Below, one piece after another: positions 2-13,609 of a DNA stretch of 64,000 nt (positions within the stretch are counted from its first letter, which is position 1; each line of letters starts with the position of its first letter). The position numbers were made by a program, and so were the translations under genes. The stretch comes from a virus, in IMG/VR virus record IMGVR_UViG_3300025141_016157, positions 1 to 64,000 of that record, one strand, 5' to 3'. Below the pieces are notes generated by a model. It was not told the DNA's origin and made no database searches. It was given only the letters and a program-made list of their open reading frames with translations.

Positions 2-133
2 GATAGACTAGGTCACGACTTTAGATATTCCATAGATAATAAAAAAATTAAATCTCTAGGCATAAGCCTGGATACAGACTTTAATAAAAACTTGCGAGAA
101 ACAGTTGAAAGTATGTTAGGAGCGTGCAAGTGA
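2..133 (+). CDS. rmlB: dTDP-glucose 4,6-dehydratase, C-terminal end (partial)
   Basis: The window opens inside this gene; only the last 43 codons are present. The visible peptide begins DRLGHDFRYSIDNKKIKSLG and continues to a LRETVESML tail. This is the characteristic C-terminus of RmlB-type dehydratases (RPGHDxRYAID, then KI..LGW, then L..TV.WY). RmlB makes dTDP-4-keto-6-deoxyglucose from dTDP-glucose, the step after RmlA, whose gene follows immediately with the RmlB stop codon overlapping the RmlA start (GTGA). The usual W of the LGW segment is replaced, so divergence is notable. Identification rests on a short tail plus the neighbour, but both agree. Confidence 0.82.
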   Translation, partial: DRLGHDFRYSIDNKKIKSLGISLDTDFNKNLRETVESMLGACK

Positions 134-1023
134 AGGGAATAATTCTTGCAGCTGGGCTTGGTACAAGATTGTATCCTATTACAAGCTGTATTTCAAAACA
201 GCTCCTGCCAATATACAATAAACCAATGATATACTACCCGTTGTCAATATTGATGCTAGGGGGAATAAAAGATATACTCATTATAACAAATCCCCACGAC
301 GCAGATAGTTTTAAAAAACTACTAGGTGACGGATCCTCACTTGGTTTAAAAATACAATATGATATTCAAAAAGAACCAAGAGGGATCGCAGATGCCCTTA
401 TAATAGGCGAATCATTTATTCAGTCTGATTCAGTATGTCTTCTTCTTGGAGATAATATATTCTATGGTCATGAAATGCCAGAATTGTTAAAAAATGTTGT
501 TAACAATGTTGAAACTGGAAAGTCAAGCGCAGTTGTATTTGGATATCCAGTAAAAAATCCAAGAAGATACGGTGTAGCAGTTTGTGATAAGTCTGGTTAT
601 GTTCTAGATATTCAAGAAAAGCCAGATAACCCAAAGTCTGACTGTGCTGTAACTGGTTTGTATATGTACGACAATACATGTGTTAGAAGGTCAAAAGAGC
701 TTGAACTATCCGGAAGAGGTGAATTAGAAATAACAGATTTAAACAAGCTATATTTAGAGGAAAAAATTTTAAATATAGAGATGTTAGGTCGAGGTCATGC
801 GTGGTTTGATACTGGGACATTTGAAAGCTTTTATGAAGCTAGTAATTTTGTTAGAAGTGTTGAAAATAGGCAAGGCCTTATGATATCAAATGTTCATGAA
901 ATAGCTTTTAGATGTGGATATATAACGCGAGATGAATTGTTAAGCTTTGTTGAAAAGTGTGGTGAAAATACATACAAGGAGTATCTTATAAAAGTCTTAA
1001 GCAAGAGTGATAAAGATGGATAA
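130..1023 (+). CDS. rmlA: Glucose-1-phosphate thymidylyltransferase
   Basis: Makes dTDP-glucose from dTTP and glucose-1-phosphate, the entry step to dTDP-deoxysugars. The N-terminus shows the nucleotidyltransferase signature GIILAAGLGTRLYP followed by SKQLLPIYNKPMIYYPLS, close to textbook RmlA. Further on are the LLLGDNIFYG motif with its metal-binding Asp and a VFGYPVKNPRRYGV segment. The length (297 residues) matches the family. I place the start at GTG 130 rather than GTG 124: AGGAG at 118-122 is 7 bases from GTG 130, and the protein then begins MKGIILA as in typical RmlA. The gene overlaps the rmlB stop and runs into the next gene, so it is part of a translationally coupled sugar operon. 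Confidence 0.95.
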   Translation: MKGIILAAGLGTRLYPITSCISKQLLPIYNKPMIYYPLSILMLGGIKDILIITNPHDADSFKKLLGDGSSLGLKIQYDIQKEPRGIADALIIGESFIQSDSVCLLLGDNIFYGHEMPELLKNVVNNVETGKSSAVVFGYPVKNPRRYGVAVCDKSGYVLDIQEKPDNPKSDCAVTGLYMYDNTCVRRSKELELSGRGELEITDLNKLYLEEKILNIEMLGRGHAWFDTGTFESFYEASNFVRSVENRQGLMISNVHEIAFRCGYITRDELLSFVEKCGENTYKEYLIKVLSKSDKDG

Positions 1024-2146
1024 AGATTACCAAAGATTTATATCTGACTTTGAAATTTCTAGCTTTACAGACTATATTTCTAAATCTAAAAAAAGTGAAG
1101 AGAGAACATTTCATACATCAAAAGGTCAAAAAAAATATGCTGACTCTAGCTTAATATTTGAAATAAAAGATGAGTGGATAAAAAAAGATATAAGTCCAAA
1201 ATTTTTATTTGCACACTTTCCACCTTTTAAAAATGAGCTAGAAGCTTTAGATTTTCCACTTTTTGTAAAGACAATTTTTCCTAATTCTATAGTAGATATA
1301 ACATATGATAAGGGAACAACTGACTTTTTATCATTTAGAATTTCTGATAATAAAATAATAAACCAGACTTCTAGTCTTGAGGGTGGATATGACTATGTGA
1401 TAGGTCGTTCTGGTGTTTTTTCTAATATGCTTCGCAGAGAATCTCATAGGGATATGTTAAAAAAATCAGGTCCAAAAATTCAAATAAAGCCAATGGGTCT
1501 TAAAAAAAATAGAGAGAATTGTGATATTTTATTTAATGATGATTTTCTTTTCTGCCCACCATCACCATATTTTAGAAATAGATGCAAAGACATATTAAAA
1601 GAAATTGATAAGAAAAACATAGCTATATTTTTAGGAAAAGTTGGAAGAGAAAAAAATCAACTTGACTATATTAGAAAGATAAAAAATGAAAATATAGGCG
1701 AATATTCAATAGTTTGTCTTGGAAATAATACAAGCGAACCAGTTTATGCAAATAGAATTAGAGAAGAATGTAGAAATAGAGGGCTCAATCTTTACATGAT
1801 CAATCAAGTTGATCACAACGTTGTTCCCGTTTTTACGTGTATAAGCAAGATTCATATTATAAATTGTGACCCAAGACCTTTTGGTCAACCATATGATCCC
1901 ATTCCAAGATGCATAGGGGAGTCTGCTATATCAAATTGTCATTCTCTTGTTTCAAAGACTACGCTTTACAATAGCGAAATGAGTCCATTTTTAACTGAGT
2001 ATGATCATGAATCTGAATCTTCCATTAATAGCAGATTTATATTATCAAAAAATATAAATACTGAAGAGTATTTTAAAAATCTTTTAACTATGGAAGAAAA
2101 GTGTATGATGATTATGAATAGGGTTCTTAGTTATGGCAAAGCATAA
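1016..2146 (+). CDS. Glycosyltransferase-like protein (GT-B fold suspected)
   Basis: A 376-residue protein. The C-terminal half looks like the nucleotide-binding domain of a GT-B glycosyltransferase: a strand-loop IAIFLGKVGREKNQLDYI around residue 205, then YSIVCLGNN, and later an RCIGESAISNCHSLVSK segment where the donor-binding E-rich loop would sit. The classic E-x7-E signature is not obvious, so the family is uncertain. The first half is not recognisable. ATG 1016 is preferred over GTG 1007 because AAGAG at 1003-1007 is correctly spaced. It overlaps the end of rmlA and the start of the deacetylase gene, so it probably acts in the same glycan pathway. It could instead be a non-catalytic GT-B relative. 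Confidence 0.55.
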   Translation: MDKDYQRFISDFEISSFTDYISKSKKSEERTFHTSKGQKKYADSSLIFEIKDEWIKKDISPKFLFAHFPPFKNELEALDFPLFVKTIFPNSIVDITYDKGTTDFLSFRISDNKIINQTSSLEGGYDYVIGRSGVFSNMLRRESHRDMLKKSGPKIQIKPMGLKKNRENCDILFNDDFLFCPPSPYFRNRCKDILKEIDKKNIAIFLGKVGREKNQLDYIRKIKNENIGEYSIVCLGNNTSEPVYANRIREECRNRGLNLYMINQVDHNVVPVFTCISKIHIINCDPRPFGQPYDPIPRCIGESAISNCHSLVSKTTLYNSEMSPFLTEYDHESESSINSRFILSKNINTEEYFKNLLTMEEKCMMIMNRVLSYGKA

Positions 2147-2771
2147 AAAAGAAACTGTGCTGCTAATAGGTCCTCATCCTGATGATGTGTTTATATCATG
2201 TGCAGGATTCGTTATATCAGCTATTGACAAATATGAATTTATTATCTGCTGTATGACAACAATGGGTGAAGATGACTACAGGGAGCGGCTAGATGAAGAA
2301 AGTGCAGCGTGGTCCAGGGTTTCTAAGGATATAGATGTTATCTTTTTTAATTCTGGCACTGATACAGAGCTTGAAAGTAGTAAAAATATCATTATACCTT
2401 TCATAGAGAATATTTGTAATGAAAGAAATCCTTCAATGATTTTTATACCATACCACACTGATACACATCAAGACCATACAGCACTATCGAATGCATGCCT
2501 ATCAGCTTGTAGATATAGAAAAAATATTATATTCTATGAGACACCGTCAACATATAATTTTCAACCAACAGTGTTTTGTGAACTATCTGATGAAAACATC
2601 GATGCAAAGAAAGATATATCAAGAGAGTATAGATCACAAGTATTAGGTGATAAAAATTACAAGATTACACTTGCTGAGATAATAGAGTCAAAAGCTCTAT
2701 CTAATGGTGTGAAAACAAGGGCGTGTAAATATGCTGAGGGATATATGCCATTTAAATACTTTCTAAGGTAG
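2133..2771 (+). CDS. PIG-L/LmbE family N-acetyl-sugar deacetylase
   Basis: Zinc-dependent deacetylase of the PIG-L/LmbE family, which removes N-acetyl groups from GlcNAc-type sugars or related conjugates. The family zinc motif P-H-P-D-D lies at residues 14-18 and the second metal/catalytic cluster THQDH at 111-115, both intact. The length of 212 residues is normal for the family. The ATG overlaps the end of the preceding glycosyltransferase-like gene by 14 bases. In context it probably edits an amino sugar built by the flanking nucleotide-sugar genes. The exact substrate cannot be read from the sequence. Confidence 0.88.
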   Translation: MAKHKKETVLLIGPHPDDVFISCAGFVISAIDKYEFIICCMTTMGEDDYRERLDEESAAWSRVSKDIDVIFFNSGTDTELESSKNIIIPFIENICNERNPSMIFIPYHTDTHQDHTALSNACLSACRYRKNIIFYETPSTYNFQPTVFCELSDENIDAKKDISREYRSQVLGDKNYKITLAEIIESKALSNGVKTRACKYAEGYMPFKYFLR

Positions 2772-2775
2772 AAAC

Positions 2776-3375
2776 ATGAAAGATCTCATAGTAACAATAC
2801 ACCAGCCTGAACATTTTCCATATGAGGGTTTTTTTAAAAAAATGGAAATGAGTGATATTTTTGTAATATTAGATAGTGTAAAATTTAAAAAAAATAATTT
2901 TCAAAATAGAAATAGGCTTGTAAACAATCAGGGAAAAGAAGAGTGGTTTGGATTCCCAGTTCCAAAGAAAAGCAATAGCATGATTATCAATGAAGTAGTA
3001 GCATGCGACGAAAGTGTCAACCCGTGGAGAAAAAAACTTTTAAAAAATCTAAAATACAATCTCGACATAGAGGCTGATAGATTCTATAACCATGAAACAC
3101 TAATTGAAATAAACATGTCAGGAATTAACTGGGTAAGAGATCAGTTAAAAATTAACACTCCCATAGTATATTCATCTCAACTCGCTGCCGCTGGAGCAAA
3201 AACTGATTTATTAGTCGAGATATGTAAAGAGCTAGGGGCATCTGAATATATTTCAGGAAATGGCGGTAGAGAGTATTTAGATTTAGAAATGTTTAAATCT
3301 GAAGATATTAAGGTAAGCTTTTTTCAATCTAAAGTTTCCAACTACTACTCAATGCTATATAATTTATCAAAATAA
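2776..3375 (+). CDS. WbqC-like family protein
   Basis: The N-terminus VTIHQPEHFPYEGFFKKMEM, followed by DIFVILDSVKFKKNNFQNRN, is the hallmark of the WbqC family (HQP.Y.PY.GF..K....D.FV..D.VQF.K....NRN). These proteins are found in O-antigen and exopolysaccharide clusters, often next to genes for amino-deoxysugars, where some act in N-acylation of the sugar. At 199 residues it is slightly shorter than the usual 220-240. It starts four bases after the deacetylase stop. A deacetylase followed by a WbqC-like protein suggests exchange of an N-acetyl group for another acyl group on a dTDP-amino sugar; that is inference. Confidence 0.85.
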   Translation: MKDLIVTIHQPEHFPYEGFFKKMEMSDIFVILDSVKFKKNNFQNRNRLVNNQGKEEWFGFPVPKKSNSMIINEVVACDESVNPWRKKLLKNLKYNLDIEADRFYNHETLIEINMSGINWVRDQLKINTPIVYSSQLAAAGAKTDLLVEICKELGASEYISGNGGREYLDLEMFKSEDIKVSFFQSKVSNYYSMLYNLSK

Positions 3376-3392
3376 AAAAGGCTGGTTTTATA

Positions 3393-4235
3393 ATGAAAAT
3401 TGGAATAATAGGGCAGGGATTTGTTGGATCTGCAATCAAAGCAGGACTTGAAAAATTCTATACAGTTCTTACATACGATATCGATATCTCGAAATGTAAC
3501 AATAGCCACGAAGATGTATGCGAAAATTCAGATATTATTTTTGTATGTTTGCCCACACCCATGAGAAAGGATGGGTCTTGTGATACAAGAATACTAGAAG
3601 ATGAAATTAAAAAAATAGATACTGAGTGCTCAGGTAACAATAGAAATAAACCAATTCTTGTAGTTAAATCTACTGTGCCACCTGGTACAACAGAGTCTAT
3701 AAACAATAAGACTTTTCTTGATGTCTGTTTTAGTCCAGAATTTTTAACAGAGGCAAATTCATTTGATGATTTTAAAAATCAAACAAGAATAATAATAGGC
3801 GGACCAAGACCGGCAACGGGAAAGGTAAAGCGAATGTTCAGAAGAGCATTTCCAACAACACCTATAATAAAAACTGGTCATAGAACTGCAGAAATGGTAA
3901 AGTATTTTACAAACAGCTTCCTTGCTTCAAAAGTTATTTTTGCAAATGAGATGTATGATATATGCACATCTCTAGGAATAGATTATGATAAAGTGACTGA
4001 ATATTCTCTCTATGATAAGCGAATCGGAAGAAGTCACTTGATGGTTCCAGGGCCAGACGGAGATAGGGGATATGGCGGACACTGCTTTCCAAAAGATGTA
4101 GAGGCTATAATTAAATTTTCATCCGAGGCGGGCGTGGATGCTAGTCTTCTAAAGAAAGTTAATGATATAAACAATACCATACGATCAAATAGAGATTGGG
4201 AAAATATGAAAGGAAGAGCTGTAAGTGAAGACTAG
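3393..4235 (+). CDS. UDP-glucose/GDP-mannose dehydrogenase family protein, short form
   Basis: The N-terminal Rossmann motif GIIGQGFVGSA, the VCLPTPMRKDG and KSTVPPGTTE segments and the FSPEFLTEA motif are those of UDP-glucose/GDP-mannose 6-dehydrogenases, which oxidise a nucleotide hexose to its uronic acid with NAD. The catalytic Cys sits in GGHCFPKD (Cys231). Only 45 residues follow this motif, giving 280 residues against about 390-450 in the family, so the C-terminal nucleotide-sugar-binding domain is missing. The stop codon is clean and the next gene overlaps it, so this looks like a compact phage form rather than a recent truncation. Activity and substrate are uncertain. Confidence 0.87.
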   Translation: MKIGIIGQGFVGSAIKAGLEKFYTVLTYDIDISKCNNSHEDVCENSDIIFVCLPTPMRKDGSCDTRILEDEIKKIDTECSGNNRNKPILVVKSTVPPGTTESINNKTFLDVCFSPEFLTEANSFDDFKNQTRIIIGGPRPATGKVKRMFRRAFPTTPIIKTGHRTAEMVKYFTNSFLASKVIFANEMYDICTSLGIDYDKVTEYSLYDKRIGRSHLMVPGPDGDRGYGGHCFPKDVEAIIKFSSEAGVDASLLKKVNDINNTIRSNRDWENMKGRAVSED

Positions 4236-5115
4236 CCTAGTCACCGGTGGATGCGGCTTCATAGGAAGCCACATAGTCGACAGGCTTATAGAGCTAGGGC
4301 ACAACGTAAGAGTTATTGACGACTTATCCGCTCAGGAAAATGAGGAGTTTTATTATAATGATAAAGCAAAATATTGGAAAAAAGATATTTCTAAAGATGA
4401 CTGTTGCAATATTTTTGACAATGTTGATTACGTATTTCACCTTGCTGCCCGTAGTCGCATTCAGCCTACTATTAAAAATCCTGGCTCTTGCTTTGAGGTT
4501 AACGTAGTAGGTACACAGAGGGTTCTAGAATGGTCCAGGTTGAACTCTGTTGATAAAATTGTATATTCTAGTACGTCATCTTTATACGGACAACAGAATT
4601 CAATTCCGTTCCAGCCGAATATGCCTTCTTACTGTCTAAACCCATATTCAATGTCAAAATGGATGGGAGAGCAGGTTTGCAAGCTATACTTTCAGCTATA
4701 TGGAGTCAAAAGCATAGCGCTAAGATATTTTAATGTTTATGGACCTAGAGAGCCAATTAAAGGGCATTATGCTCCTGTTATTGGACTATTTAAGAGACAG
4801 TCATTAGAGGGTAGAAGAATGACTATTGTCGGAGACGGTCTACAGAAAAGAGATTTTACCTATATTGACGATGTTGTCTCTGCAAATATTTGTGCTATGT
4901 CATCAAGTATTAATCACAGTGTGTATAACGTGGGAACTGGTAAAAATTATGAAATTATTGAAGTTGGTGATATGATAAAAAATAATTCTGGGTTTGAGCA
5001 TATAGGCGAAAGGCCAGCTGAGGTAAGAGAGACCCTTGCAGATATTAGCAAGACTACATCTGAACTAGGGTGGAAACCTGTATGGTCACTTGAGGATAAA
5101 ATTAACGAGTATTGA
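4225..5115 (+). CDS. NAD-dependent nucleotide-sugar epimerase/dehydratase (extended SDR)
   Basis: The extended short-chain dehydrogenase fold is clear: GGCGFIGSHIVDRLIELGH at the N-terminus binds NAD, VFHLAARSR follows, and the catalytic YSMSKWMGE (Y-x3-K) is intact with an upstream STSSLYG. The ALRYFNVYGPR segment and the RDFTYIDDVV motif are those of UDP-glucose 4-epimerase and related enzymes. The length (296 residues) is near normal. It begins with GTG inside the end of the dehydrogenase gene (11-base overlap). Whether it is a 4-epimerase, a dehydratase or a decarboxylase on UDP-uronic acid cannot be decided; the adjacent dehydrogenase makes a UDP-sugar substrate plausible. Confidence 0.88.
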   Translation: MKTSLVTGGCGFIGSHIVDRLIELGHNVRVIDDLSAQENEEFYYNDKAKYWKKDISKDDCCNIFDNVDYVFHLAARSRIQPTIKNPGSCFEVNVVGTQRVLEWSRLNSVDKIVYSSTSSLYGQQNSIPFQPNMPSYCLNPYSMSKWMGEQVCKLYFQLYGVKSIALRYFNVYGPREPIKGHYAPVIGLFKRQSLEGRRMTIVGDGLQKRDFTYIDDVVSANICAMSSSINHSVYNVGTGKNYEIIEVGDMIKNNSGFEHIGERPAEVRETLADISKTTSELGWKPVWSLEDKINEY

Positions 5116-5117
5116 TA

Positions 5118-5543
5118 ATGACAAATAAAAAGAAAAGAAACTGGACAAAAAATAGAGATATTCTTAAGTCTATTTCGAATCCTTCAAAAGATTCCTATGA
5201 AATTAAGATGAAAATTCCAGAGCTTACATTTGAGGGAGTACGTGGCCAACCAGATTTTGCAAAGCTTTATATCACATTTTACCCTGGCGACAAAGTTATA
5301 GAGCTAAAATCTTTAAAGGAGTATTTCTTTGCATTTAGATCTCAGCTATATTCTTACGAAAGAATTATCAATGTTATCTATGATGATATGATGGCAGCCT
5401 ACGAACCCTCAAGACTTCGACTTGTTATGACTTGTAATCCAAGGGGTGGTATATCGTCTAAGCTTACTGTAGATTCTGATTGGGGAGTAAGGGGCGGAAA
5501 AGATATCTTTAAAGACTGGGTCGGTCAAACTGATGAGTGGTGA
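5118..5543 (+). CDS. QueF-like T-fold protein lacking the catalytic Cys
   Basis: Resembles the single-domain preQ0 reductase QueF (7-cyano-7-deazaguanine to preQ1, NADPH-dependent). Family landmarks are a GQPDF box (residues 43-47 with its conserved Asp), VIELKSLKEYFFAFRSQ, the substrate-binding Glu in SYERIIN (His-Glu in QueF, here Tyr-Glu), and the terminal NPRGGISS. The catalytic Cys four residues before GQPDF is replaced by Glu39 (TFEGVRGQPDF, against xLCPxTGQPDF in QueF). The thioimide chemistry of QueF should therefore be impossible. It may instead bind or transfer a 7-deazaguanine, as QueF-like amidinotransferases do, although those keep the Cys. ATG 5118 is chosen over TTG 5112. No other queuosine gene is in the window. 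Confidence 0.8.
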   Translation: MTNKKKRNWTKNRDILKSISNPSKDSYEIKMKIPELTFEGVRGQPDFAKLYITFYPGDKVIELKSLKEYFFAFRSQLYSYERIINVIYDDMMAAYEPSRLRLVMTCNPRGGISSKLTVDSDWGVRGGKDIFKDWVGQTDEW

Positions 5544-6719: not shown

Positions 6720-7961
6720 ATGAAGAAAAAAATATTAGTTTTATCTGATCATGCACTTTCAACATCTGGCGTGGGAGTTCAGACTAGACATTTAATTGAG
6801 GGTCTATTAAAGAAAAACAAGTACACTTTTAGACAGTTTGGTGCAGCACTAAAGCATGCAGACTACAGGACTGTTGTTGTAAATGATGACTTTATTATCA
6901 AGCCAATAGATGGATTTGGAGATAGAGAGACACTCAGGGTGACACTGGCAACAGAGAAACCAGATGCACTTTTAATATTTACTGATCCCAGATTTTTTAT
7001 CTGGCTTTTTGAAATGGAAGACGAAATACATCAAATATGTCCAATTATATGGTGGCATGTATGGGACAATACACCATATCCGAAGTTCAATGACCCGCTG
7101 TACAGAGCAACAGATTCAATTAACTGTCACAGTTATCATACTTACACACAGCTTAGTGAACACCATAGTGAAAAAACAAATTTTATCCCACACACAGTTC
7201 CAGAAGAGATATTTAAAAAACTTCCAGAAAATGAAAGAATTAACAGTAAGCGAGCTCTTCTTGGAAATAGCAAAGAGGATGACTTTGTAGGAATATGGAT
7301 TAATAGAAACGCAAAGAGAAAGAGATCGTCTGATGTATTAGAATCATGGAAAATTTTCCTAGAAGATCTTGAAAAAAATGAAGGTCATAGAAATGCAACT
7401 CTCATTATGCATTGCGACCCGCATGACCCAGAAGGTGCAAATTTATTAATAGTATCAGAAATGATGGGAATACAAGATAATGTACTATTCTCAAGGGATA
7501 GAATAGATTTTGATCAAATGAATATTCTTTATAATATATCTGATTTTTGTTTAAATATTAGCTTTGCAGAAGGCTTTGGACTATCAACTCTTGAGTCAAT
7601 GCAAGCTGGAACTCCAATAATTGCTGCAAAAACAGGAGGCTTAACACGACAGGTTGTTGATCATAGGGATGGAACTGAAAATGGCGTTGCGCTAGACATA
7701 GATTTCAAAACCCTTGTGGGATCGCAAGGTGTGCCGTACATACATGAAGACTATGTCTCTTCTGAGAATGTAGCAAAGGGAATTATGAAAATGTACAACA
7801 AGACTGATACTGAGAAATCTATGCTCTCAGATAAAGTTATGAGATACGTTAAAAATTCATTTTACTATGATGATATGATAGATTCCTGGGATAAAGAGTT
7901 GACAGCTACAATCCAAAATTGGAAAAATTCATATAAAAGATACAGCATTAAAACAATATAG
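6720..7961 (+). CDS. Glycosyltransferase family 4-type (GT-B)
   Basis: A retaining GT-B glycosyltransferase of 413 residues. The N-terminus KILVLSDHALSTSGVGVQTRHLIEGL contains the Gly-rich acceptor-side loop typical of group 1 enzymes. The C-terminal donor site is textbook: SFAEGFGLSTLESMQAGTPI with the E-x7-E pair Glu284/Glu292, then AKTGG. It sits ten bases upstream of a second glycosyltransferase, so the two probably add consecutive sugars. Possible acceptors are host surface glycan, virion protein or modified phage DNA. No membrane segment is visible, so the enzyme is cytoplasmic. Confidence 0.9.
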   Translation: MKKKILVLSDHALSTSGVGVQTRHLIEGLLKKNKYTFRQFGAALKHADYRTVVVNDDFIIKPIDGFGDRETLRVTLATEKPDALLIFTDPRFFIWLFEMEDEIHQICPIIWWHVWDNTPYPKFNDPLYRATDSINCHSYHTYTQLSEHHSEKTNFIPHTVPEEIFKKLPENERINSKRALLGNSKEDDFVGIWINRNAKRKRSSDVLESWKIFLEDLEKNEGHRNATLIMHCDPHDPEGANLLIVSEMMGIQDNVLFSRDRIDFDQMNILYNISDFCLNISFAEGFGLSTLESMQAGTPIIAAKTGGLTRQVVDHRDGTENGVALDIDFKTLVGSQGVPYIHEDYVSSENVAKGIMKMYNKTDTEKSMLSDKVMRYVKNSFYYDDMIDSWDKELTATIQNWKNSYKRYSIKTI

Positions 7962-7971
7962 GCAAGTTTAG

Positions 7972-9147
7972 ATGATTAGAGCAATTATTAGAGCACCAAT
8001 GTTATCCGTTAGCGGATACGGAGTTCACTCAAGACAGATATTTAGATACTTAGAGAATTCTAAGTTTAACTTTGATGTAGAGACTCAAATAGTAAGCTGG
8101 GGAAATACACCGTGGCTAATAAATCCTAGTTTTGAAAACGGTATAGTAGAAACTATAATGAGCAAAACTCAAGGCAAAGAGTCAATTGCTGATATATCCT
8201 TTCAGGTACAGTTACCTGATGAGTGGGATTCCAATCTTGCTCGTATCAATATAGGAATTTCTGCTGTTGTTGAAACTGATAGATGCAGACCTGAATGGGT
8301 TGATGCATGTAATAAAATGGATGCCATAATAGTTCCATCGAACCATGCAAAATCTTGCCTAGAGCTATCTGGAAATCTAAATGTAAAAGTCTATGTTGTA
8401 CCTGAATGGTTTTTTGAGCAAATCACGGAAGAAGATTTTTCAGAAAATGAATTTTCAAACAAAGACTTTGGAACAGACTTTAATTTTTTAATATTGTCCC
8501 AGCTAACTGGACAAACACCAGAGACTGATAGAAAAAATATATTTTTTACAATTAAATGGATTTGTGAGGAGTTTAAGGATGATCCGGATGTTGGAATTGT
8601 CCTTAAGACAAATCATGGAAGAGGAACAACGATTGATCGAGAACTAACTACAAACCTTTTGAGAAAGCTTGTAAGCGAAGTTAGAGAAGGTCCGTATCCT
8701 AAAATTCATCTTGTTCATGGAAATTTATACCCGGAGGAGATTTCCGGATTATACAGGAACGATAGTATAAAATCGCTCGTAAGCCTTACGAGAGGAGAAG
8801 GCTTTGGCTTGCCTCTATTGGAAGCTGCAGCATCTAACTTACCAGTAATCACAACAAACTGGTCAGCACATACAGAGTTTCTATCTCTTGGAAAATTTTT
8901 AAAAATAGACTATGATTTAATTAATATTCCGAAAGAAAAAGTTGATAATAGAATATTTGCTGATGGAGTCAAATGGGCAGATCCCCACGAAAAAGACTTC
9001 AAGAAAAAAATTAGAAAATTTAGAAAAAAATCAAATATTGCGAAAGAATGGTCAGGGTTACTTGGCGAGAGAATTAGGGCAGAATATTCAAAAGAAGAAG
9101 TTTGCAAAATATATGACAGAGTTTTGGGTGAGATACTAAAACAATGA
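7972..9147 (+). CDS. Glycosyltransferase (GT-B, group 1-like)
   Basis: A 391-residue GT-B glycosyltransferase. The N-terminal strand IRAIIRAPMLSVSGYGVHSR carries the Gly-rich loop, IIVPSNHAKSCL is the interdomain strand-helix, and the C-terminal donor-binding motif RGEGFGLPLLEAAASNLPVI holds the E-x7-E pair Glu276/Glu284, followed by TTNWSAHTEF. It follows the other GT-B gene closely and overlaps the start of the next gene by four bases (ATGA). The two glycosyltransferases are not close copies of each other outside these motifs, so they probably have different donors or acceptors. Confidence 0.88.
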   Translation: MIRAIIRAPMLSVSGYGVHSRQIFRYLENSKFNFDVETQIVSWGNTPWLINPSFENGIVETIMSKTQGKESIADISFQVQLPDEWDSNLARINIGISAVVETDRCRPEWVDACNKMDAIIVPSNHAKSCLELSGNLNVKVYVVPEWFFEQITEEDFSENEFSNKDFGTDFNFLILSQLTGQTPETDRKNIFFTIKWICEEFKDDPDVGIVLKTNHGRGTTIDRELTTNLLRKLVSEVREGPYPKIHLVHGNLYPEEISGLYRNDSIKSLVSLTRGEGFGLPLLEAAASNLPVITTNWSAHTEFLSLGKFLKIDYDLINIPKEKVDNRIFADGVKWADPHEKDFKKKIRKFRKKSNIAKEWSGLLGERIRAEYSKEEVCKIYDRVLGEILKQ

Positions 9148-9461
9148 CATCTTTGTATTTTTTTATATCTTTATCTTCACTGTTTTTTCTGCTTCTCTCT
9201 GCATCAATTTATCTTAATGTAAAAATGGGATTAACGATACTAAAAATTGAAGATTCCATAGAGGAGTCTCTTGACATAATTGATGAAAGATATGAATCGA
9301 TATCAAAAATACTTGAAATTCCTATTTTTTTTGACTCTATTGAAGTTAGACAGGTCGTAGAAGATATTAGGAGAACAAAAGTATCTCTTTTAAAGATTGC
9401 AAACTCACTTTCAAACGTTAATTATGAGAATGAAAAAATAGAAAATAGAGATGTAAAATGA
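9144..9461 (+). CDS. Small membrane-anchored protein
   Basis: A 105-residue protein with one strong N-terminal hydrophobic segment (about residues 4-26, LYFFISLSSLFFLLLSASIY) followed by a charged helical tail rich in Glu, Ile and Lys that could form a coiled coil. This architecture is seen in many T4-like marine phages between glycosyl and sigma genes, but no function is known to me. It is coupled by ATGA overlaps to both neighbours. It is likely anchored in the inner membrane with the helical part in the cytoplasm or periplasm. Confidence 0.75.
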   Translation: MTSLYFFISLSSLFFLLLSASIYLNVKMGLTILKIEDSIEESLDIIDERYESISKILEIPIFFDSIEVRQVVEDIRRTKVSLLKIANSLSNVNYENEKIENRDVK

Positions 9462-10195
9462 TAAAAAGAAAAAGAACTATAAGAAGGGGAAAGAAAAAAA
9501 GTAAAAATAATTATTTTAGTCAAGATACTCATGACGCTATTAGGGTATATCAAAATACTGAAAAGCTTGCTGGTAAGCATGCAATATACATAAAGGATAT
9601 ACTTCCTGCGTTTAACAAACTTGCCGAGAATTTAATTTTTATACACAAGTTTGCAAAAAGCCCAGAAGCATTTGAGAGACTAAAGTGTGATTGTGTAACT
9701 TTTTTATATGAAACACTTCATAAGTTTGATCCAGATAGAGGAACAAAAGCATTCTCTTATTTTAACGTAGTTGCAAAAAATTGGCTTATTATCCAAAGTA
9801 AAAAAACAGCCAAGCAAAGAAAGAGAACTATAAGCATAAGCGATATTGAGGAGAGCACAGGCGCAGAAATAAGCTTTCACGAATCTTTTAAAGTTCAACC
9901 ATCACAAGAAAAAAATATAATTAGAAAGGAATCAAAGCAAGATCTTGATAATATCCTAGTACAGATAAAGTCAAATTTAAAAACAGAGAAAGAGCATGCA
10001 TGCATGGATGCAATAATATCTCTTTTTGACAGGGTTGATGATCTTGAATTATTAAACAAGAGAGCAGTTTTTGTATATTTAAGAGATATATCAAACTTAT
10101 CACCAAAGCAATTATCTGTAACGATGTCTAAAATAAGAAAGCATTATAGAGAAATTTCTGATAAGGGCGATTTCTTTTTATTTTTCGGTGAGTAA
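9458..10195 (+). CDS. gp55: Late-transcription sigma factor, T4 gp55-like
   Basis: A minimal sigma factor of 245 residues. A very basic N-terminus (KRKRTIRRGKKKSK) precedes a sigma region-2-like block: FLYETLHKFDPDRGTKAFSY, continuing into FNVVAKNWLI, at about residues 84-112. This matches region 2 of sigma factors (core binding and -10 recognition) and the equivalent part of T4 gp55. A region 4 helix-turn-helix is not evident, as in gp55, so late promoters should be -10-only. It ends in an acidic/hydrophobic tail (GDFFLFFGE), comparable to the gp55 C-terminal sliding-clamp-binding segment. It stands just before the baseplate genes it presumably activates. Confidence 0.83.
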   Translation: MIKRKRTIRRGKKKSKNNYFSQDTHDAIRVYQNTEKLAGKHAIYIKDILPAFNKLAENLIFIHKFAKSPEAFERLKCDCVTFLYETLHKFDPDRGTKAFSYFNVVAKNWLIIQSKKTAKQRKRTISISDIEESTGAEISFHESFKVQPSQEKNIIRKESKQDLDNILVQIKSNLKTEKEHACMDAIISLFDRVDDLELLNKRAVFVYLRDISNLSPKQLSVTMSKIRKHYREISDKGDFFLFFGE

Positions 10196-10196
10196 A

Positions 10197-10559
10197 ATGG
10201 ATAAAAAAAATAAATCATTTATGCAAAAAGTTAAGGAAAAGGAAGCGAAAATATCTAAATTCTCAGAGCTTCTTGACTCCCTTGAGAACACGGAGGACAA
10301 GAAAAAACTTTTATGGCGTGAGATATATGAAAATGCACTTACTGACAGGGAGAATGCAAATATTCTACTTGTAGATCTGCTAATGCAAACAAAGGGAAGC
10401 CTTGCAAATCACGGATCATACGGGACAATACTATCAAAATATCTAGAAAGAATGTCAAAGTGCAATGATCAAATTTTAAGACTTGCAGAGATTATAGGCA
10501 AGGAGCAAGAAACATCCATTGATATAAACGATATTTACGGAAAGATCAATGAGTCTTAA
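10197..10559 (+). CDS. Small helical protein next to the late sigma factor
   Basis: A 120-residue, highly charged helical protein, with KSFMQKVKEKEAKISKFSEL at the start and an EIYENALTDRENANILLVDL core followed by HGSYGTILSKYLERMSKCND. I recall similar small proteins in T4-like marine phages, and the place beside gp55 makes a role in late transcription (a gp33-like coactivator) possible, but I cannot show similarity to T4 gp33. ATG 10197 is chosen over GTG 10188 because GGTGAG at 10187-10192 can serve as ribosome binding site. The end overlaps the gp5-like gene. Confidence 0.68.
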   Translation: MDKKNKSFMQKVKEKEAKISKFSELLDSLENTEDKKKLLWREIYENALTDRENANILLVDLLMQTKGSLANHGSYGTILSKYLERMSKCNDQILRLAEIIGKEQETSIDINDIYGKINES

Positions 10560-11982
10560 AAGATTTAGAGATTCAACTTCGAATAGTACCAGTACAAATC
10601 CAAATGAAAGCCCTGGTCAGGGAAAAAGTGTTGGAAAACGAGGAAGGATTCTTTATGAGGCTGTTGTAACAAACTTTTTCTCAAATCCTTCATTTGATTT
10701 AGAGCAAAATCCTCCAAATGATCCTGATAAGACTTATGCAGAGTCAATGGAGAAGGGTGTAAATCAGGTAAAAAATACATCTTTTATTAGAAAAATGCCA
10801 AGATCATCTGTCTCTGCCATTGTTGTATCTGACAGGGAGGGTTGGAAAACTCAAAAATCTGAGATATTTTATCCACTCTTTCCCCATCTCACAATGCCAG
10901 TAAAGCCGGGTGAGAAAATATGGATTATATATGATACTATAAATAGAGAAAAATCAAGAAGGGGATACTGGATTGGAAGAATATCATCAAATATTAATAT
11001 AGATGATCAAAACTATACGCATTTAGATAGAGAATTTTTATATTCTAGTGTGGGTGTTTCAACTACAAGTGCCCTTGACGCAGCATCAGGAGGATCATCA
11101 TACGAAGATACTGATATCTATAGTTTTATAGCCGGTGCGGGAAATAGAAATAACAATACCCTTCCAGGATCTGCGCCGTATGACTCTATTGTTTCTAATT
11201 CTATGTCATATGTTGAACAATTTAACGGTGAGCCAGTCCCGAGATTTTCGCCTAGGGTTGGAGATTTTATACTTGAAGGATCAAATAACACTCTCATCTC
11301 ACTTGGCCAAGATAGACCATCTCTTACTGGACCAGTTGATGAATCGGGCATAAAGGGAATAGGGACGATTGACATAGTTGTAGGAAGAGGACAGTCAGAA
11401 TCAACAGCACCTGCAGGTGATCCGATTGAACTGGAGAAAAGAGGAGAGAATTTAGACCCATATAGCGAGACAAATAAATGGCCTCAATTTCAAGATACAC
11501 CTCCAAATGAAGGTGAGGGTAATCCAGATTTTGCAACTGACTTGTCGAGAGTATATGTCTCGATGAAAACAAACGGTGATGCAAATTTTGGGCTAGCATC
11601 TATTAACTCTCTAGGCTCTACGCCTGAAGTTAGTGAGGCACCATATATTATAGGAAAGTCAACAGAGATCAGGCTAGTCTCAAGAGATGGCGGAAGCATA
11701 AGGATGATAAAAGAGGGCGACGCCCAAGCAGAGATTTGCATCGCATCAGATGGAAAAATTGTTATCGAAGGTACAAATTCTGCAAGATCTGCACAAAAAG
11801 TTATACGAGGCGAAGATTTAGCAAAAGCTGTTTCTGACTTTAGCACTAATATTGCATCAGCTATGATAAAAACATTTGGAAATATGGGCGGAATGATAGT
11901 CGATGGCGGAATAGCATCGTCATGCTCAACACTAGCAGCAGATGTAGAGCTTGCACTAAGCTCAGAAGTATTTATTAAGTAG
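10549..11982 (+). CDS. Baseplate hub protein, gp5-like (OB-fold)
   Basis: Probably the central hub/spike protein under the tail tube. Residues about 35-145 (RILYEAVVTNFF, then VSAIVVSDREGW, FYPLFPHLTMPVKPGEKIWI) look like the OB-fold of T4 gp5, which binds the hub and threads the spike. The C-terminal third (TEIRLVSRDGGSIRMIKEGD, later ASDGKIVIEG) has the short beta repeats of spike proteins before a Gly/Ala-rich end. There is no lysozyme domain, in contrast to T4 gp5 but like many marine relatives. It is followed by gp25- and gp6-like genes, as expected for a baseplate cluster. Confidence 0.68.
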   Translation: MSLKRFRDSTSNSTSTNPNESPGQGKSVGKRGRILYEAVVTNFFSNPSFDLEQNPPNDPDKTYAESMEKGVNQVKNTSFIRKMPRSSVSAIVVSDREGWKTQKSEIFYPLFPHLTMPVKPGEKIWIIYDTINREKSRRGYWIGRISSNINIDDQNYTHLDREFLYSSVGVSTTSALDAASGGSSYEDTDIYSFIAGAGNRNNNTLPGSAPYDSIVSNSMSYVEQFNGEPVPRFSPRVGDFILEGSNNTLISLGQDRPSLTGPVDESGIKGIGTIDIVVGRGQSESTAPAGDPIELEKRGENLDPYSETNKWPQFQDTPPNEGEGNPDFATDLSRVYVSMKTNGDANFGLASINSLGSTPEVSEAPYIIGKSTEIRLVSRDGGSIRMIKEGDAQAEICIASDGKIVIEGTNSARSAQKVIRGEDLAKAVSDFSTNIASAMIKTFGNMGGMIVDGGIASSCSTLAADVELALSSEVFIK

Positions 11983-11988
11983 GAAATT

Positions 11989-12537
11989 ATGGGCATTACA
12001 TCACCAATGGCAGACTGCTTATCTGCTCCAGATGAGATATTTACAGCATATTTTGATCCAATAGTTGAAGCTATGATGATGTCTGTAACTCCTATAATAG
12101 AGCCTTTGTGCATAGCCTTGTGGAATAAACCAGACATAAAAATTGCGTTTGAGATCATTGCAGAGTTTGGATTAAAGCTTCCGGATATAGCATTAGATCC
12201 CCTTATACTATTTGAACTTGCAGGAATTGAGCTGCCTAGTATTTTATTAGGTTTTGATATAAGCATGGAAATAGCCATAGATATTGACTTGCCTACATTG
12301 CCAGCTTATAATATCGCTATTGGAATGCTACTTATACCAATTGACATAGTAATAGGCTGGATAGATAGCTTTCCAGTAATTGAGCTTCCAACAATAGATC
12401 TTATAATAGATCTTCTAATCGATCTAGGGTTTGATCCAAGCATAAATCTCGAATGTGTTGCACAAATTATTATGATACCTTTTGAAGTAATAGGCGAAGT
12501 TATGGCAGCTACAGACAAACCGTCTATATGTGAATAA
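11989..12537 (+). CDS. Very hydrophobic acidic protein of unknown function
   Basis: A 182-residue protein with a striking composition: Ile, Leu, Pro, Asp and Glu dominate, Arg is absent and Lys is rare. Short units such as LPTLPAYNIAIG, ELPTIDLIIDLLIDLGFDPS and LKLPDIALDPLILFELAG repeat with a Pro every 10-15 residues. It could be a membrane protein with several short segments, but the regular Asp/Glu in the hydrophobic runs fits a beta-helical or multimeric spike part better. It starts at ATG 11989 with a TAGGAA ribosome binding site. It lies directly behind the gp5-like hub, where T4 relatives encode spike-tip or hub accessories. Not recognised. Confidence 0.72.
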   Translation: MGITSPMADCLSAPDEIFTAYFDPIVEAMMMSVTPIIEPLCIALWNKPDIKIAFEIIAEFGLKLPDIALDPLILFELAGIELPSILLGFDISMEIAIDIDLPTLPAYNIAIGMLLIPIDIVIGWIDSFPVIELPTIDLIIDLLIDLGFDPSINLECVAQIIMIPFEVIGEVMAATDKPSICE

Positions 12538-12538
12538 A

Positions 12539-12814
12539 ATGAGTGTAAAAGATATAAAAGAGGGCTGGCTTAACTATATGAAAAGAGCCATAGGCAGAAG
12601 ATCGCTGGACGAAAAACTATCGCTAGAGGTTGAAAAAAGAGCTAAAATCTGCTCTGATTGCCCGTATTTAAAAGTAATTTCAAAAAGTAATAATAGAATT
12701 TTCTGGGGAATGTGCAAGAGATGTGGGTGTGTTTTTCCCGCTCTTGTCTATTCTCCTTCAAAATCTTGCCCTGAGAATAAATGGAATAGTATACCTGACG
12801 ATAAATTGAGTTAG
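12539..12814 (+). CDS. Small cysteine-rich zinc-binding protein
   Basis: About 91 residues. Cysteines are placed as CSDCP, then MCKRCGC, then SCPENKW, i.e. C-x2-C...C-x2-C plus two more, which is a zinc-ribbon arrangement. Small zinc proteins of this sort occur among T4-like phage baseplate genes without a known role. The N-terminal half is helical and basic. ATG 12539 is placed after the previous stop; GTG 12530, overlapping that stop, is an alternative start. Confidence 0.7.
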   Translation: MSVKDIKEGWLNYMKRAIGRRSLDEKLSLEVEKRAKICSDCPYLKVISKSNNRIFWGMCKRCGCVFPALVYSPSKSCPENKWNSIPDDKLS

Positions 12815-12819
12815 AATAC

Positions 12820-12839
12820 AATTGTGCATTTGCACAATT
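12820..12839. promoter_or_regulatory. 20-base inverted repeat between genes
   Basis: AATTGTGCA-TT-TGCACAATT: two perfect 9-base arms separated by two bases, in the 45-base gap between two small genes. The tiny loop makes a hairpin terminator awkward, though a T-rich stretch follows. As DNA it looks like an operator for a dimeric regulator. It is 20 bases upstream of the next start codon. Confidence 0.45.
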
Positions 12840-12859
12840 TCTAATATTAAGGGGTAGAA

Positions 12860-13054
12860 ATGAAACAAGAAGAAGTAAAAAAGATAGCAGAGCTTAGAAA
12901 TTATATTATAGGATTCTATAAATCAATAGAGGGCACAGAGTCACCAGGATCTGCTGTGATGAAATCAGCAGATATTGCATATTTTTGCGAAAGTGTCATA
13001 AGGAGCGCTGATGATATATTAAAGCCGTATGTAAGCTTTAAAAATTCAAAATAG
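12860..13054 (+). CDS. Small protein of unknown function
   Basis: A 64-residue protein preceded by a good ribosome binding site (AAGGGG at 12849-12854). Mostly helical: KQEEVKKIAELRNYIIGFYK, then a short Gly/Ser turn, then VMKSADIAYFCESVIRSADD. No known motif. It lies between a palindrome and the gp25 gene and may have its own control. Confidence 0.6.
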   Translation: MKQEEVKKIAELRNYIIGFYKSIEGTESPGSAVMKSADIAYFCESVIRSADDILKPYVSFKNSK

Positions 13055-13097
13055 AAATAATAATTGATACTGCGTCTTTCTAAATTTTTTATTCAAT

Positions 13098-13109
13098 ATA
13101 TTTAGATAC
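13098..13109 (+). promoter_or_regulatory. ATATTTA box upstream of gp25
   Basis: ATATTTAGATAC, 11 bases before the gp25 start codon and followed by the AGAGGTG ribosome binding site. It belongs to a set of similar boxes in gaps before genes in this window; see the finding. The role is unproven. Confidence 0.3.
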
Positions 13110-13120
13110 TAGAGGTGTAA

Positions 13121-13609
13121 ATGGGTGCATACGAAGATGAATATGAATGGAAGTCATCTGGGACTATAACGGCAACAATGTCTGGGTCGGAGTTTACTCC
13201 TTCACCAGCGCCTGTCGGTGTTGTAATACCTCTTGCGCCGGGAACAGATCTTTCAGGAATATTTGAAATGACTTACAACGGTGCTAAGCAGATTGCCTAT
13301 AATTTTCAAAATCTTGTAAGCACGAATCACGGAGAAAGAGCAGGAAATCCGGGATATGGTGCAAATCTTAGGCCTCTTTGTGCAGAATATTCAAGACTTA
13401 GCTTGAGTGAGTTTGAATCTGAGGCAATGAGTAGAATTAAAATTGCTGTAGATAAATTTCTTCCTATAGTTGAGCTAGATAATTTCACAACAAGTTATAT
13501 TGAGGATGATGATCCTGCACTTCTTAGGATTGATATGAATATAAAATTTAACATACCAATGTTATTTTCAATGGGAAATAACATAAAGGTATCGTTTGCC
13601 CTACTTTAA
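13121..13609 (+). CDS. gp25: Baseplate wedge protein gp25-like
   Basis: A gp25/W-family baseplate wedge protein that links the wedge to the hub and starts the sheath. The family core is clear: an AKQIAYNFQNLVSTNHGER helix-loop, NPGYGANLRPL, and the following KIAVDKFLPIVEL strand-helix and DPALLRIDMNIKFNI strand. Length 162 residues against 132 in T4 gp25; the extra residues form a Thr/Ser/Pro-rich N-terminal arm. It is followed 12 bases on by the gp6-like wedge gene; in related phages this pair is conserved. Confidence 0.88.
   Translation: MGAYEDEYEWKSSGTITATMSGSEFTPSPAPVGVVIPLAPGTDLSGIFEMTYNGAKQIAYNFQNLVSTNHGERAGNPGYGANLRPLCAEYSRLSLSEFESEAMSRIKIAVDKFLPIVELDNFTTSYIEDDDPALLRIDMNIKFNIPMLFSMGNNIKVSFALL

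Follow-up and report, generated by a model that had tools for sequence, protein, structure and literature searches.

A QueF subfamily without the catalytic cysteine, predicted to be a T-fold methylene-tetrahydrofolate reductase in bacteria and large marine phages

What does a protein of the QueF type do when the catalytic cysteine is gone? QueF is defined by Cys55, Asp62 and Glu97 together with the Glu78 motif, and sequences lacking any one of these are excluded from the family (PMC5372742). The question is raised by a gene in the window, by which we mean the whole stretch of DNA analysed (64,000 nucleotides, positions 1-64000 of a 160,346-bp virus record). Judged from its sequence, this gene belongs to a hitherto undescribed subfamily of QueF, here called Q. 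The gene and the parts of it that bear on the question are:

5118..5543, + strand: Q, the QueF-like gene without the Cys (141 aa), predicted to encode a methylene-tetrahydrofolate reductase with a T-fold (family matches, relatives, AF2 model).
5226..5249, + strand: codons 37-44, remodelled loop TFEGVRGQ replacing the catalytic TSxCPxTG(Q) loop, with one residue deleted.
5235-5237, + strand: Gly40 codon, aligned with Cys55 of QueF.
5253..5255, + strand: Asp46 codon, the counterpart of B. subtilis Asp62, found without exception in Q (157/157) and ordinary QueF (21/21); predicted general acid.
5301..5318, + strand: codons 62-67, ELKSLK, the QueF motif with NADPH-binding residues, kept.
5358..5360, + strand: Glu81 codon; this residue, which anchors the purine or pterin, corresponds to B. 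subtilis Glu97 and never varies (157/157 Q, 21/21 QueF sequences).
5472..5483, + strand: codons 119-122, DSDW, a signature of the Q subfamily not found in ordinary QueF.

The open reading frame starts with ATG and is a real gene within an operon-like series of + strand genes. It is number seven in a + strand run for sugar nucleotides and surface polysaccharide; sugar nucleotide genes upstream (124-5115) include a nucleotidyltransferase, a PIG-L deacetylase, WbqC, UDP-glucose dehydrogenase and an epimerase. A Pfam scan of the protein returned only QueF (PF14489, E=2.6e-21) and QueF_N, with no match to MetF (PF02219). The NCBIfam model QueF-II (TIGR03139, preQ1 synthase) matches with 94.4 bits (trusted cut-off, 86.9), as do structures of B. 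subtilis QueF (4fgc, E=2.4e-16). The AF2 model has a mean pLDDT of 80 and its closest PDB match in a Foldseek search is again 4fgc, with a TM score of about 0.7 (0.71); by model and structure search, the protein has the T-fold of QueF. Its identity to unimodular QueF (TIGR03139/PF14489; B. subtilis, PDB 4F8B, 4FGC) is about 35%. Isolate phages in GenBank gave 37 matches, each below 60% identity.

Searching with the protein sequence and with alignments of it, we obtained 10, 34, then 80 viral loci; in bacteria, 80 of the 189 confirmed loci were analysed. Q is a family under purifying selection, not a degenerate gene: between the window gene and eight viral relatives there are 0.73-0.84 synonymous changes per site, which is near saturation, and 0.06-0.11 non-synonymous ones. 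True members score about 210-254 bits against the Q profile (248-252 in a scan of Bacteroidota genomes) and ordinary QueFs at most 83 bits, and Q forms a single clade with a long stem in the tree (local support 0.95). TIGR03139 matches all 46 members scanned, taken by best match, as the curated cut-off was applied to the window protein alone; NCBIfam would annotate members of Q as preQ1 synthase.

We aligned 157 members of Q (the window protein and 156 relatives) with 21 ordinary unimodular QueFs, 20 from Bacteroidota genomes and one from B. subtilis. Where the B. subtilis sequence used was aligned with PDB 4f8b/4fgc, the two are in agreement. The column of the catalytic cysteine (Cys55/194) contains Cys in 21/21 ordinary QueFs and Gly in 157/157 Q sequences, and the Q loop is shorter by one residue, the Gly preceding QPDF. 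A first-pass annotation of the locus had noticed the missing Cys but assigned its position to Glu39; the absence extends to the whole subfamily, while the aligned residue is Gly40, and Glu39 is Leu in most members. The same annotation saw a second departure in a Tyr replacing the His of the His-Glu pair. This is no departure at all, as the His96 column of ordinary, Cys-bearing QueFs holds 11 Tyr, 9 Phe and a single His (20/21 Tyr or Phe). Nor did the alignment reveal another active-site Cys, which the annotation had named as a possible outcome: none is conserved anywhere among the 157 members. A Cys one position later (Val41 in the window protein) was rejected as nucleophile, being present in only 3/157 sequences, all near relatives; C106 (VMTCNPRGG) was rejected likewise, being invariant in close phage relatives and Phe or Ser elsewhere. 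By the family mechanism, a normal, thioimide-forming preQ0 reductase is excluded, as the annotation had concluded, and since Q lacks Cys55 it is not a QueF by the published definition (PMC5372742).

All other defining residues of QueF (Asp62, Glu97 and the Glu78 motif) are invariant in 157/157 Q sequences. Functions have been assigned to the Asp (PMC5372742, PMC5485725) and to Glu97 as the anchor (PMC5372742), and the QueF motif reads E(S/L)K(S/A)hK(L/Y)(Y/F/W) (PMC5372742). The ELKSLK segment was correctly recognised in the first-pass annotation as a kept feature. In the numbering of the window protein, Asp46, Glu81, Glu62, Lys67 and Arg109 are invariant in Q, and Lys64 is Lys or Arg. Invariant in Q and ordinary QueF alike (B. 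subtilis numbering) are Asp62, Glu97, Glu78, Lys83, Arg90 and Arg125, with Lys80 being Lys or Arg. Residues invariant in Q only include Phe38, Lys32, Ser79, Arg82, Arg99, Arg101, the DxDW signature (119, 121, 122), Gly126 and Gly127; the basic ones among them could hold the glutamate tail of a folate.

In bacteria, the conserved neighbours of Q are genes of the methionine/SAM cycle and of folate metabolism, not queuosine genes. Neighbours were identified by sequence alone; taking bacteria and viruses together, Q is found next to MetH, MetE, MetK, SahH, Pfs, ThyX or homocysteine-synthesis genes. In bacteria, one or more genes of these pathways lie within 5 kb at 52/80 Q loci and at 1/26 ordinary QueF loci (Fisher p=2.5e-8, a value that overstates independence, as the counts include related species). 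The arrangements differ among phyla. At four loci, in Cyclobacteriaceae, Flammeovirgaceae and Crocinitomicaceae, Q is located between the N- and C-terminal parts of a split MetH. Five of the seven Q-bearing Cytophagales, with small genomes of 1.3-1.6 Mb, have MetK, Q, MetH(N) and MetH(C) in series, preceded in three of the five, in the stretches read, by SahH. MetH lies beside Q in divergent orientation in two Gammaproteobacteria (Pleionea and another genome), and precedes Q in a Halanaerobiales MAG. Chitinophagaceae have Q between cystathionine gamma-synthase and homoserine dehydrogenase, some with MetX as well, and in Deltaproteobacteria ThyX is followed by Q at about ten loci.

Viral loci have similar neighbours. 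A 273-kb virus contig (L008) carries MetK, Q, MetH and SahH consecutively (6968-13256); its MetH is full-length (1178 aa) and of the B12-dependent type (TIGR02082, 1406 bits), and the contig appears to encode a near-complete methyl (SAM) cycle. Two other contigs have Q followed by the B12-independent MetE (L185, 8414-10549; L189, 8402-10555; NF003556, 838 and 826 bits). Q, MetK and SahH occur together on five contigs, and APRT, MetK and Q on seven, with Pfs next where the contig extends far enough. We noticed no LuxS near six of these runs, in which the last gene encodes a Pfs-like nucleosidase. MetH and MetE are unrelated proteins, and what they share are the substrates homocysteine and 5-methyl-THF. 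Given that SahH already supplies homocysteine in such viruses, Q is best placed on the side of 5-methyl-THF.

On two viral contigs the order is Q, ferredoxin, SahH. Altogether, six viruses (L003, at 8418-8654, L004, L009, L010, L133 and L134) have a gene for a small ferredoxin with a single cluster (PF13370) after Q; the ferredoxin is possibly an electron donor, or its position is a coincidence. A 306-kb "bacterial" contig, L053 (NHDW01000006.1, from the Methylococcaceae MAG TMED69), shares synteny with the viral contig L009 and probably comes from a large phage that was binned wrongly.

If Q makes 5-methyl-THF, its distribution should be compared with that of MetF, the presence of which we scored as a match to PF02219. 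MetF is absent from 27/50 Q-bearing genomes and present in 23/50, so that Q is not always the sole enzyme. Where MetH adjoins Q, 12/15 genomes are without MetF. One of the three exceptions is L053; the MetF of TMED69 is on another contig, and with L053 taken as a phage it is no evidence against a reductase. In a random sample of the phylum Bacteroidota, Q was present in only 2/296 genomes, one of them the centre genome. As this is too rare for a comparison, we turned to the order Cytophagales, from which 194 genomes were drawn without regard to Q. MetF is absent from 7/7 Q-bearing genomes compared with 36/187 of the others (present in 151/187; p=1.8e-5, ignoring kinship, the seven genomes representing at least two lineages rather than seven independent events). 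In the order of Pleionea, MetF is present in 86/119 genomes, and 4/5 Q-bearing gammaproteobacterial genomes are without it (p=0.025, weak). By neighbourhood and distribution, Q is linked to methionine synthase and stands in for MetF, as a methylene-THF reductase would, with MetF still in 23/50 genomes.

Putting neighbourhoods, residues and distribution together, we infer that Q quite probably reduces 5,10-methylene-tetrahydrofolate to 5-methyl-tetrahydrofolate with NAD(P)H and without a flavin, doing the job of MetF on an unrelated fold. The three known types of enzyme, MTHFR, Mfr and Mer, are all TIM barrels in which protonation turns the substrate into a 5-iminium cation, which then accepts a hydride; in Mfr, NADH itself gives up the hydride and no flavin takes part (PMC11094777). 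In QueF, the nitrile is trapped as a thioimide on Cys and receives a hydride, the imine is released, and a second hydride follows (PMC5372742). This last step, from imine to amine, needs no Cys, and the iminium reduction proposed for Q would resemble it. Glu81 would hold the pterin ring, as in other T-fold enzymes; methylene-THF would open to its 5-iminium form, with Asp46 giving the proton; and the hydride would come straight from NADPH, which Arg109 and the ELKSLK motif would keep in place. With an iminium to reduce and no nitrile to trap, such an enzyme would need no Cys. We also consider it likely, with a shade less confidence, that Q constitutes a fourth, non-TIM-barrel class of methylene-THF reductases, which arose from QueF by loss of the Cys, takes over from MetF in several lineages of bacteria and also occurs in large marine phages, some with a whole methyl cycle (MetK, Q, MetH or MetE, SahH or Pfs).

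The predicted enzyme would share reaction and pathway position with MetF and is found where MetF is missing, but MetF is an FAD-containing TIM barrel and Q a T-fold protein of 141 residues with no detectable sequence match to it. Q would resemble the mycobacterial Mfr in passing a hydride directly from NAD(P)H to the 5-iminium cation, whereas Mfr is a TIM barrel with a catalytic Glu, reported only from mycobacteria (PMC11094777). The archaeosine synthase of Crenarchaeota, QueF-L, which was among our structure search results, is likewise a T-fold relative of QueF with a different reaction, but its Cys (Cys21) is retained and ammonia takes the part of NADPH (PMC5485725); Q has no such Cys and does have the NADPH motif. 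If our reading is correct, a family that now carries the automatic label preQ1 synthase belongs to one-carbon metabolism, the 5-methyl-THF of bacteria with MetH and without MetF is accounted for, the QueF group has a third chemistry, iminium reduction, besides nitrile reduction and amidination, the TIM barrel is no longer the only fold known for the reaction, and viruses with a near-complete operon for SAM regeneration are revealed. In the open-access literature we found no paper linking QueF with MTHFR or MetH; an earlier description elsewhere is possible. Counting against a reductase are the 23/50 genomes with MetF, a single gene run in Marinoscillum that contains both MetF and Q, the fact that most Q-bearing assemblies are MAGs, in which an absent MetF can be missing sequence, and the lack of any match to MetK, MetH or SahH in the window phage genome.

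The co-occurrence with MetF would be explained if Q were not a reductase but served the methionine/SAM cycle in an accessory or regulatory way, for instance as a sensor that binds folate or by assisting MetH. So would the tight arrangement of MetH(N), Q and MetH(C). We consider this unlikely: Q also adjoins the B12-independent MetE, which needs no helper of the MetH type, both the acid Asp and the NADPH motif are retained in it, and the source of 5-methyl-THF in genomes with MetH and without MetF would be left unexplained.

The database label raises another alternative, that Q is a preQ0 reductase, or other deazaguanine enzyme, working without a covalent thioimide. It has in its favour the TIGR03139 matches and six Deltaproteobacteria genomes (L067, L076, L084, L085, L087 and L101) with a strong QueC match, in which Q is the only PF14489 protein. 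Against it, QueC is absent from 36/50 Q-bearing bacterial genomes, which therefore cannot make preQ0. In genomes with a second PF14489 protein, of the ordinary type, QueC is present in 7/7, compared with 7/43 of the others (p=3e-5). The occurrence of ordinary QueF thus follows queuosine, whereas that of Q does not. The phage itself gave no match to QueD, FolE or a TGT domain in its 160,346 bp, and neither did the contigs of ten relatives, many of them fragments, which gave no QueC either (DpdA was covered only through the TGT model PF01702). The sole QueC match in the phage, at 148175-148828, is weak and comes from a PP-loop protein of the TilS type (TIGR02432, 118 bits). With methionine genes as neighbours, and a mechanism defined by the Cys (PMC5372742), we regard a preQ0 reductase as very improbable.

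Equally improbable is a role with a different folate, be it that of an alternative dihydrofolate reductase or one in some other step feeding ThyX and methionine synthase. T-fold enzymes bind pterins, and ThyX adjoins Q at the deltaproteobacterial loci mentioned above, but neither ThyX nor MetH or MetE yields dihydrofolate, and so they call for no dihydrofolate reductase. The first-pass annotation had offered two roles for a Cys-less QueF, a new step, which we agree is possible, and binding of a deazaguanine base; the latter, as a shield of phage DNA from restriction, has a precedent in phages with QueF-like genes and 7-deazaguanine DNA (PMC6884629) but is scarcely credible here, given that the queC, queD, folE and dpdA search proposed by the annotation (together with queE) gave the results described and that bacteria carry Q in their chromosomes, next to methionine genes.

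As a methylene-THF reductase, Q would raise the level of 5-methyl-THF in phage infection for host or viral synthesis of methionine and SAM. In the window phage it probably supplies 5-methyl-THF to the host methionine synthase, for SAM in phage methylation or for methionine. A ThyX-like gene is also present in the phage (108589-109575; PF02511, E=2e-22). Elsewhere in the record, the TilS-like tRNA lysidine synthetase gene is followed by a gene that, by eye, is IMP dehydrogenase/GMP reductase-like (148175-149855 for the pair); also by eye, we noted genes resembling cysteine synthase (101325-102188), GroEL (141505-143094) and sigma-70 (143940-144665).
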